Source: Xenophilus sp. AP218F
GTDB lineage: Bacteria > Pseudomonadota > Gammaproteobacteria > Burkholderiales > Chromobacteriaceae
Assembly (NCBI GenBank): GCA_002213445.1
Contig: NJIE01000009.1
Location: 124,001-188,000, forward strand
Length of the DNA stretch: 64,000 nt
Direction: 5' to 3'
Below the pieces are notes generated by a model. That model saw only the letters and a program-made list of their open reading frames with translations. It was not told where the DNA came from and did not search any database. Both the position numbers and the translations under genes were made by a program. Within the stretch, counting starts at the first letter, position 1, and every line of letters starts with the position of its first letter. Shown here piece by piece: positions 60,515-62,685 of the stretch.

Positions 60515-60735
60515 GCTTTCGCTTCCCGGTTGAAAATCCAGCCGCAAATGGTCGGCGATTGCCCGTCCACAGGCAAGCCATGCCGCGGCGAGGCCTCAGG
60601 ACATGAAAATAATTCGGCATTCAAATGCACGGCCATGATCATATCTATCTGTTTAATTGTGACTTTTTATTAATCGAATGAACGATAGAAACCAGACGCT
60701 TTCCAACATGCACACCCTTATTGCAAGAGCCGATC

Positions 60736-61077
60736 ATGTTGATTCCCGCCGTTCATTACCAGCCCATCACCCTGCCGCCGGTCGAGCGTCCCGCCCGCCC
60801 CGCGGCCAAGGTGGCCGGCATCGGCGCCAATCAGCCCTATTCCGCCGATCAGCACCACGAAATGGCGGAGATGCTGTATCGCCAACTGCTGCTGCAACAA
60901 AGCCAGCCGGGCGATTCGACCCAGAGCCAGCCTTTGCCTTTCCGCCGCTCATCCGCTCCTGATCCGGCTCAAACCCTGCCCGCCGCGCCGCGCGCGCGCG
61001 AAACCGGGCCGCAGCTGGCCGCGTATCGCCAAACGCCGGCCATGCCGAACGGCAGCCTGTTCTACGCGCAAGCCTAG
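60736..61077 (+). CDS. Hypothetical Pro/Gln-rich protein, 113 residues
   Basis: No recognised family. The ATG at 60736 has AAGAG upstream and high-GC codon use continues to the stop. The product is Pro- and Gln-rich with no Cys or Trp, no signal peptide and no membrane span; HHEMAEMLYRQLLLQQSQ (about residues 40-57) may be a helix and the rest is likely disordered. The stop lies just before the trp-leader promoter. It may be a small regulatory or structural protein; I cannot suggest a function. Confidence 0.5.
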   Translation: MLIPAVHYQPITLPPVERPARPAAKVAGIGANQPYSADQHHEMAEMLYRQLLLQQSQPGDSTQSQPLPFRRSSAPDPAQTLPAAPRARETGPQLAAYRQTPAMPNGSLFYAQA

Positions 61078-61099: not shown

Positions 61100-61129
61100 T
61101 TGACACTCCTCCGGCGCGCGTGGTTACAT
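61100..61129 (+). promoter_or_regulatory. Promoter of the trp leader-trpS transcript
   Basis: A perfect -35 TTGACA (61100-61105), 18-bp spacer and a moderate -10 TTACAT (61124-61129). The expected start point, about 7 nt further, falls at 61136, the A of the leader-peptide ATG, so the transcript may be leaderless. Confidence 0.6.
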
Positions 61130-61135
61130 GAAAAC

Positions 61136-61189
61136 ATGAATACCGCATCCGCATTCGCAATCCAGTTCTGGTGGTGGCGCCTCTCCTAG
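61136..61189 (+). CDS. trpL: Trp leader peptide, 17 residues with three consecutive Trp
   Basis: The frame ATG to TAG encodes MNTASAFAIQFWWWRLS. Three Trp codons in a row (61169-61177) near the end, directly before competing hairpins and trpS, are the mark of a ribosome-mediated attenuator. The ribosome should stall on them when charged tRNA-Trp is scarce. No Shine-Dalgarno is visible; translation may start on a leaderless mRNA. The peptide itself probably has no other role. Confidence 0.82.
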   Translation: MNTASAFAIQFWWWRLS

Positions 61190-61254
61190 GCGGCACCGGC
61201 GCTTGCGCACGCAAATCACCCGGGAGCTGCCGACAAGGCGCACCGGGTTTTTTC
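61169..61254 (+). promoter_or_regulatory. Transcription attenuator with competing hairpins before trpS
   Basis: Three alternative pairings are visible. 1:2: GGTGGCGCC (61173-61181, over the Trp codons) with GGCGGCACC (61189-61197), 8 of 9 paired, loop containing the stop codon. 2:3 antiterminator: CGGCA+CCGG (61191-61199) with CCGG (61220-61223) and TGCCG (61228-61232). 3:4 terminator: ACCCGG (61218-61223) with CCGGGT (61243-61248), an inner TGCC/GGCG stem, then six T (61248-61253). A ribosome stalled on the Trp codons would free segment 2 to block the terminator and let trpS be read. Confidence 0.8.
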
Positions 61255-61309
61255 ATGGCATCCCCCCACCTTGCCGGCAGTCTCCAGATACCTCTGACCC
61301 GGAGACTGA

Positions 61310-62335
<1,026 letters not shown>

Positions 62336-62367: not shown

Positions 62368-62685
62368 ATGGAACACGTTTTTCAATGCCAGAGCCTGGAG
62401 GAAGTCCGGGATCAGATAGACCGCATCGACCGCGTGCTGGTGGCGCTGGTGGCCGAACGCGGCATTTACGTGCGCCAGGCGGCGCAGTTCAAGGACAGCC
62501 GCGCCGAGGTGGAGGGCGGCAAGCGCGTCGATCAGGTGATGCGCCGGGTGGAGCGGCTGGCGGGCGAACTGGGCGCCGACCCCGCGCTCACCGCCGCCAT
62601 CTACCGCAGCATGATCACCCACTTCGTGGCCGATGAGCTGGCCCAATTCAATCGCCGCCGGCCACGCGACGGCGACGGACATTAG
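62368..62685 (+). CDS. Chorismate mutase-like protein, AroQ/PchB type
   Basis: A 105-residue all-helical protein resembling the AroQ-alpha fold and especially PchB-type small chorismate mutases: LEEVRDQIDRIDRVLVALVAERG, then YVRQAAQFK, GKRVDQVMRRVERLA, and AIYRSMITHFVADEL, read in parts. The Arg, Lys and Arg of these segments fit the substrate-binding positions. It lies 32 bp after trpS with AGGGAG before its ATG, so it probably shares the Trp-controlled transcript. A role in aromatic amino acid supply, or a mutase/lyase on isochorismate, is inference. Its end overlaps the convergent GNAT-like gene by 4 bp. Confidence 0.8.
   Translation: MEHVFQCQSLEEVRDQIDRIDRVLVALVAERGIYVRQAAQFKDSRAEVEGGKRVDQVMRRVERLAGELGADPALTAAIYRSMITHFVADELAQFNRRRPRDGDGH

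Follow-up and report, generated by a model that had tools for sequence, protein, structure and literature searches.

The window (the whole stretch of DNA analysed here, 64,000 nt) contains a trpS gene preceded by a short leader open reading frame (ORF) with tandem Trp codons and by a series of RNA segments that can pair in alternative ways. The features are listed below by their positions in the window.

60721-61077: ORF of 118 aa upstream of the leader; without a match in Pfam or NCBIfam (E 0.001).
61100-61129, forward strand: promoter-like pair read from the sequence, TTGACA (61100-61105) and a poor -10-like TTACAT (61124-61129), the latter 6 nt before the leader ATG.
61136-61189, forward strand: leader ORF of 17 codons, MNTASAFAIQFWWWRLS, read from the sequence; stop codon TAG at 61187-61189.
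61172-61182, forward strand: segment 1, from the Trp codons into a Leu codon; partner of segment 2 (folding and alignment).
61188-61199, forward strand: segment 2, overlapping the leader stop codon; partner of segment 1 or 3 (folding and alignment).
61218-61238, forward strand: segment 3, terminator 5′ arm and loop (loop 61232-61236); partner of segment 2, 4 or 5 (folding and alignment).
61237-61253, forward strand: segment 4, the terminator 3′ arm (61237-61248), with the T run at 61248-61253 (sequence, folding and alignment).
61269-61285, forward strand: segment 5, CCUUGCCGGCAGUCUCC, complementary to segment 3 (61223-61238) and, in its 3′ half, to the trpS ribosome-binding site (RBS) (folding, covariation and permutation).
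61301-61308, forward strand: segment 6, the Shine-Dalgarno (SD) region of trpS, GGAGACUG, able to pair with 61278-61285 (folding and alignment).
61313-62335, forward strand: trpS, 340 aa, with HLGH and KMSKS motifs, nearest to tryptophanyl-tRNA synthetase (TrpRS) II among solved structures (TIGR00233 and structure matches).
62368-62685, forward strand: chorismate mutase-like gene (CM_2), 32 nt after trpS; PF01817 at 57.1 bits.

The trpS product scores 246.8 bits against TIGR00233 (cut-off 176.75). Its best matches among solved structures are 1yi8 (tryptophanyl-tRNA synthetase) and 2a4m (Tryptophanyl-tRNA synthetase II), at E about 1e-120, both being TrpRS II of Deinococcus radiodurans; the other solved TrpRSs listed match at 6.1e-65 or weaker. 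By this comparison, one of similarity and not a tree, the product is a TrpRS II-like paralogue. The protein's nearest named matches belong to Chromobacterium species and reach 90% identity. Elsewhere in the 3.98-Mb genome lies a second TrpRS frame, 403 aa long (G000:C28:89823-91007; 46 and 33% identity in two blocks), and both TrpRS types occur in all 19 genomes of the genus. The TrpRS II type is present in 58 of 61 family genomes, only the other TrpRS being found in the remaining three (G029, G031 and G032). Its described partner in D. radiodurans, according to a review, is NO synthase (PMC9437257). Such a link was rejected here: D. radiodurans TrpRS II is the nearest solved relative, and its NO synthase partner is not found in this genome, where PF02898 has no match at E 0.001 (the control search was positive in 2 of 14 genomes).

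The chorismate mutase-like gene is possibly co-transcribed with trpS. A chorismate mutase- or isochorismate-lyase-like relative lies near trpS at 55 of the 65 family loci searched (at some of them 0.8 kb off, at some broken) and at none of the 46 loci L066-L111. If co-transcribed, this gene would fall under the same control as trpS, an odd arrangement for an attenuator responding to Trp, since chorismate mutase diverts chorismate from tryptophan. For the 118-aa ORF on the other side, a few Chromobacterium loci show no more than weak and partial similarity.

The leader ORF occupies the 235-nt intergenic region between the end of the 118-aa ORF (61077) and the trpS start (61313). Direct reading of the sequence from its ATG at 61136 places TGG TGG TGG at 61169-61177, so that the 17-codon ORF with three tandem Trp codons ahead of trpS, as described in the initial annotation, is present. 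No ATG-initiated ORF of 8-30 aa with WWW appeared in 20,000 dinucleotide shuffles of the intergenic region, and one with WW appeared in 34; the leader is also the sole WWW ORF of such size in the 64-kb window when both strands are scanned. The WWW leader is not a product of chance. Its Trp codons overlap segment 1 and its stop codon overlaps segment 2, which is the arrangement required by attenuation.

Among 54 distinct Chromobacterium-family sequences, 53 have a TTGAC that starts 36 or 37 nt upstream of the leader ATG; among 36 distinct sequences from loci L066-L111 (mostly Oxalobacteraceae), 32 have one that starts 35 or 36 nt upstream. A -35 box at 35-37 nt from the ATG would set the start of transcription at the ATG itself. 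Ahead of the leader ATG, an SD-like motif is seen in one of the 54 family sequences and in none of the 36 from L066-L111; before the trpS start the motif is found in 54 of 54 and 35 of 36. A simple sigma-70 scan of the leader region reported no promoter. In a point that goes beyond the initial annotation, the leader ORF of the window lacks a Shine-Dalgarno sequence and is probably translated from a leaderless RNA, the start being placed by spacing next to a poor -10 match.

Three pairings between segments 1 to 4 were recomputed: 1:2 (61172-61182 with 61188-61198, -18.2 kcal/mol), 2:3 (61189-61199 with 61220-61231, -19.8 kcal/mol) and 3:4 (61218-61231 with 61237-61248, -19.3 kcal/mol). Their coordinates agree within 1-2 bases with those first proposed, and the six T reported after the 3:4 hairpin are there at 61248-61253. 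The three pairings are mutually exclusive, and 3:4 is followed by a U tract in the window, as befits a Trp attenuator. The leader fold is only moderately better than its shuffles (z -2.03, 8/200). The 3:4 hairpin went unreported in a simple terminator scan, probably because of internal mismatches in the stem. Folding with segment 1 masked, suggested as a check on the annotation, did not turn out as expected: the minimum free energy structure still contains 3:4, and the antiterminator 2:3 is not preferred. Since static folding shows no such preference, the regulatory outcome would require co-transcriptional kinetics.

The core pairings were followed in an alignment of 53 distinct Chromobacterium-family sequences built without reference to structure. 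Paired cells amount to 95.8% for 1:2, 93.1% for 2:3 and 92.2% for 3:4, against at most 66.4, 64.4 and 50.6%, respectively, when the partners are slid by 1-3 columns. The stems are nearly invariant and thus offer scant covariation, double changes being limited to 0, 1 and 1 cells; of the covariation anticipated in relatives, conservation of all three stems was found, and compensatory changes within the family were almost absent. Other families have different segment sequences with, as judged by eye, the same arrangement and complementarities. The terminator arms, for instance, are ACCCGG/CCGGGU in Chromobacterium and AACGCC/GGCGUU in Massilia. The core stems are thus supported by conservation in the family together with complementarities that appear to be kept across families of differing sequence.

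The Trp codons and pairings are retained in close relatives: of the 58 Chromobacterium-family genomes with a TrpRS II gene, 57 have a Trp-codon leader ahead of it, all but G030. The ribosome-mediated Trp attenuator proposed for trpS by the initial annotation, with its predicted regulatory outcome, is supported in this way, and the tandem-Trp leader with its exclusive pairings is almost certainly a Trp attenuator of trpS. Each distinct sequence entered the counts once; L212-L218 served for leader presence only, and L021, in which the trpS start motif was not found, was left out of the structure counts.

A wider set of 99 loci, in which the same gene is present twice in some cases, contains 89 with an ATG-initiated ORF bearing WW or WWW, mostly 150-300 nt upstream of trpS. 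The ten without a leader are six from Collimonas, two from Rhodocyclaceae, one from Glaciimonas and the Janthinobacterium MAG L087; one of the Rhodocyclaceae loci (L076) has only 150 nt before trpS, so its absent leader says little. L087 has an otherwise similar leader with a single Trp codon, MKFIESHRACPQSWPRRRHAAA, which is perhaps a decaying attenuator. TrpRS II was detected at E <= 1e-100 in 31 of 250 sampled genomes of the order, seven in the own family and 24 outside it. Twenty upstream regions from the 25 such genes outside the family (those of G479, G491, G522, G598 and G660 left out) divide evenly, with a leader in ten (L192-L195, L197-L199, L205, L207 and L209) and none in ten. Leader-bearing loci outside the own family span six families (f231, f213, f190, f203, f223 and f187).

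A class-wide sample supplied 21 more distant TrpRS genes, at 42-56% identity; all of them lack a leader of comparable kind, the WW ORFs of L166 and L174 being chance-like. Upstream of the other, 403-aa-type TrpRS, 18 of 19 regions have no WW ORF, and the remaining one (L143) has only a longer, chance-like GTG-initiated WW ORF of 32-43 aa. Attenuation of trpE in the same genome was also considered and rejected, as no WW leader lies upstream of that gene (L219, G000:C18:13300-14500); Trp attenuation in this genome would thus bear on tRNA charging, the first biosynthetic gene being without it.

The number of TrpRS copies does not strictly predict the leader. TrpRS II is the sole TrpRS detected in four of the 58 family genomes (G039, G041, G042 and G043), all with the leader, and again in G064 and G493, where the leader is also present; this would place an essential enzyme of such genomes under control by starvation. 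A strict rule by which the attenuator marks a second TrpRS copy fails on these six and fails again on G447, G631, G561 and G444, where the leader is missing despite a second TrpRS. Genome G470 has two TrpRS II genes (C8 and C41; L197 and L204), one with the leader and one without, plus other TrpRS frames.

The conserved element does not end with the region covered by the initial annotation (61254) and extends to at least 61308, taking in segment 5 and the trpS RBS. Segment 5 is a conserved stretch between terminator and trpS, nearly the reverse complement of the terminator 5′ arm and loop. The 3:5 pairing (61269-61285 with 61223-61238, -26.4 kcal/mol) is stronger than 2:3 or 3:4 in the window. 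When compared with 100 dinucleotide shuffles, it is equalled by five or fewer in 47 of 54 family sequences (mean z -3.7) and in 13 of 27 sequences from L066-L111 (mean z -1.8), and is weak (more than five of 100 shuffles as good) in 7 and 14, respectively. The 27 are drawn from 36 distinct sequences, segment 3 being unanchorable in L069, L073, L088-L090, L093, L094, L096 and L104. At ten loci of other families, 3:5 is matched by at most one of 200 shuffles in eight, by 8 of 200 in L205 and by 42 of 200 in L207, where it is weak.

Segment 3 and segment 5 also fit each other better within a sequence than between sequences. Own versus permuted partners give -28.4 versus -23.5 kcal/mol (sd 0.71) for 21 family haplotypes, -20.3 versus -16.9 kcal/mol for 15 haplotypes of L066-L111 and -25.8 versus -19.8 kcal/mol for the ten loci of other families, each with 0 of 5000 permutations, counts that, like those from the shuffles, are not strict probabilities among haplotypes related by descent. 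Only 6 of the 21 family haplotypes and 2 of the 15 from L066-L111 have their own partner in first place, alone or tied, and the window's segment 3 pairs better with the corresponding regions of seven other haplotypes than with its own.

The alignment of 3:5, which covers the pairing of the window plus one further column pair that reads A.C there, presents a mixed picture. Six of the 12 pairs of the main helix are changed on both sides (C-G to U-A, G-C to A-U, A-U to G-C and A-U to C-G). Doubly changed cells number 26 versus 8.8 in shuffles (0/500), and 23 of them fall in terminator-loop columns 70-74; these columns are unpaired in 2:3 and 3:4, so that neither pairing explains those double changes. 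The percentage of paired cells (75.3%, at most 55.7 when slid) and the covariation score (0.187, at most 0.126 when slid) are the only measures that beat both controls, shuffled and slid. The 26 doubly changed cells do not surpass the slid versions, which have 29, 24 and 22, and neither the pairs changed on both sides (216/500 shuffles) nor the pair types (491/500) rise above shuffles. One of the sixteen 3:5 pairs is mostly broken, and three more are broken in nearly half of the sequences. The compensatory changes between loop and segment 5, together with a complementarity that recurs with different sequences in several families, point to selection on 3:5, and we regard it as very probably a selected pairing.

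The 3′ half of segment 5, CAGUCUCC (61278-61285), can alternatively pair with the SD region GGAGACUG (61301-61308) in a 5:6 helix, in which 61302-61304 are fully paired at equilibrium in the window. When segment 5 is blocked, the RBS zone (-14 to +3) becomes more open in 45 of the 54 family sequences and in 20 of the 27 from L066-L111. A control block of equal size placed elsewhere has a smaller opening effect in 40 of 46 family sequences and in 10 of 17 from L066-L111 (p 0.15, no clear difference), with 8 of 54 and 10 of 27 sequences, respectively, left out as having no usable control. At the ten loci of other families, in an uncontrolled comparison that leaves out the start codon, the SD zone opens in five and closes in four. 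In the alignment, the paired cells of 5:6 are no better than shuffles (265/500), and a one-column slide has more double changes (32 versus 20). Permutation favours the own 5:6 partner (2/5000 in the family, 9/5000 in L066-L111); at the loci of other families, 5:6 exceeds 95% of shuffles in just two of the ten, L194 and L205. Taken together, these comparisons support a putative anti-RBS role of segment 5 fairly well in the Chromobacterium family and little in the other groups.

The closed state of the window, in which 3:4 and 5:6 form together, outcompetes 3:5 at equilibrium, to which the folding energies refer, folding during transcription being outside their scope. Opening of the RBS would consequently depend on folding order. 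In several sequences (e.g. L116 and L119) 2:3 and part of 3:5 can coexist, and a starvation RNA could thus pass directly from 2:3 to the open state. That segment 5 works as a latch on the RBS is possible, with the balance tilting slightly against it.

The sequence elements, their conservation, and the complementarity and covariation of 3:5 are direct observations; where transcription starts, how expression responds and, most of all, what segment 5 does for translation are inferred from them. The explanation that we consider likely as a whole is a leaderless Trp attenuator of a TrpRS II-type trpS, in which segment 5 would lock out 3:4 and free the RBS. The leaderless transcript would begin at or beside the leader ATG. 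When Trp-tRNA is sufficient, the ribosome would reach the stop codon and cover segment 2, leaving 3:4 to form and terminate transcription. When Trp-tRNA is scarce, the ribosome would stall at UGG UGG UGG and cover segment 1, so that 2:3 forms first and transcription reads through to trpS. Segment 5 is transcribed after the termination decision and could act in cis only in read-through RNA. There it would pair with the terminator loop and 5′ arm, excluding 3:4, and this 3:5 pairing would withdraw it from the trpS RBS, at least in the Chromobacterium family. Read-through RNA in which the terminator is folded would remain poorly translated. The model requires 2:3 to be in place before segment 5 invades. 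Segment 5 would probably form a second, translational layer.

In its most elaborate form, which we offer only tentatively and consider somewhat less likely than not, the element would be an attenuator of five or six segments. Segment 3 would decide on transcription (2:3 versus 3:4) and then on the RBS (3:5 versus 5:6), with a leaderless readout and with 3:5 kept through large sequence turnover in six families (f1, f187, f190, f203, f213 and f231).

Natural variants bear on the two layers. Seven of the 53 family sequences (L016-L020, L057 and L149) have three or fewer T among the eight bases after the hairpin. All seven retain the leader Trp codons and segment 5, with a 3:5 pairing equalled or bettered by five or fewer of 100 shuffles. 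They may have lost termination control, and the retention of 3:5 in them is expected if segment 5 serves a function other than termination.

An ordinary four-segment Trp attenuator, in which segment 5 is a local RBS hairpin or 3:5 has no regulatory effect, would be simpler. The four-segment core alone accounts for the Trp codons, the 1:2, 2:3 and 3:4 pairings and the T run; moreover, 3:5 cannot influence a termination decision taken before segment 5 is transcribed, and some of its covariation measures fail to beat the controls. This explanation is nevertheless unlikely, because the compensatory loop and segment 5 changes and the recurrence of 3:5 in several families with different sequences indicate selection on the pairing. 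A second alternative is a trans effect of the terminated leader RNA, exerted through pairing of the terminator loop with segment 5 of the trpS mRNA. The 3:5 complementarity does include the exposed terminator loop, and rnTrpL of Sinorhizobium, a leaderless attenuator RNA, is reported to act in trans on trpDC mRNA (PMC7298713). The same pairing is, however, available in cis in every read-through RNA, and we consider a trans mechanism improbable. A chance ORF that happens to lie beside a terminator of other function, or a different RNA sensor such as a T-box, has only the moderate z-score of the fold in its favour and can be dismissed, given the shuffles (0/20,000 for WWW), the conserved tandem Trp codons and the lack of any Rfam family at gathering score in the window, where only low-scoring unrelated matches lie near the leader.

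If the leaderless attenuator with its segment 5 is correct, a Trp attenuator of the beta-group proteobacteria feeds the charging enzyme and not a biosynthetic operon, and a ribosome readout on leaderless RNA is combined with a translational check built from the same RNA segment. The variants with a poor U tract and a retained segment 5 would allow the two layers to be separated. The attenuator would also mark when a duplicated aminoacyl-tRNA synthetase comes under demand-driven control.

Attenuators of the E. coli trpL type in trp operons have tandem Trp codons, the 1:2, 2:3 and 3:4 logic and a U tract. The trpS leader shares all of these and differs from them in its target, which is trpS and not trpE, and in its conserved fifth segment. 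In Streptomyces, as the initial annotation notes, trpRS1 is reported to use an attenuator. The review cited above describes trpRS1 as conferring indolmycin resistance (PMC9437257), and an attenuator is predicted for trpS2 of Streptomyces avermitilis (PMC1262725). In Streptomyces lividans, trpL1 and trpL2 are reported as leaderless and trpL2-trpS is listed, trpL2 being described with one Trp codon and no uridine-enriched stretch (PMC8079986). These systems resemble the present one in placing a Trp-codon leader or candidate attenuator before trpS, in the case of trpL2 also a leaderless one; they belong to a different phylum, and the available portions of both papers (PMC1262725, PMC8079986) do not mention a fifth segment. 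The trpL attenuator of Sinorhizobium is likewise reported to be leaderless (PMC7298713). For the trpS mRNA of Caulobacter, another Gram-negative bacterium, a small putative leader CDS is reported, with no structure described in the excerpts of that paper (PMC4117421). The main text of PMC2965389 mentions neither trpS nor tryptophan. The vmlR gene of Bacillus subtilis, an antibiotic resistance factor from a different phylum, is reported to combine transcription and translation attenuation on one gene (PMC9226507), and is comparable in that both layers of control are proposed for a single gene. The passages covered in the literature searched show neither a fifth segment nor a beta-proteobacterial trpS attenuator, and an earlier prediction may exist. 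Attenuators of trpS, leaderless ones included, have thus already been described in Streptomyces, and the fifth segment is, within the literature searched, the novel part of the element presented here.
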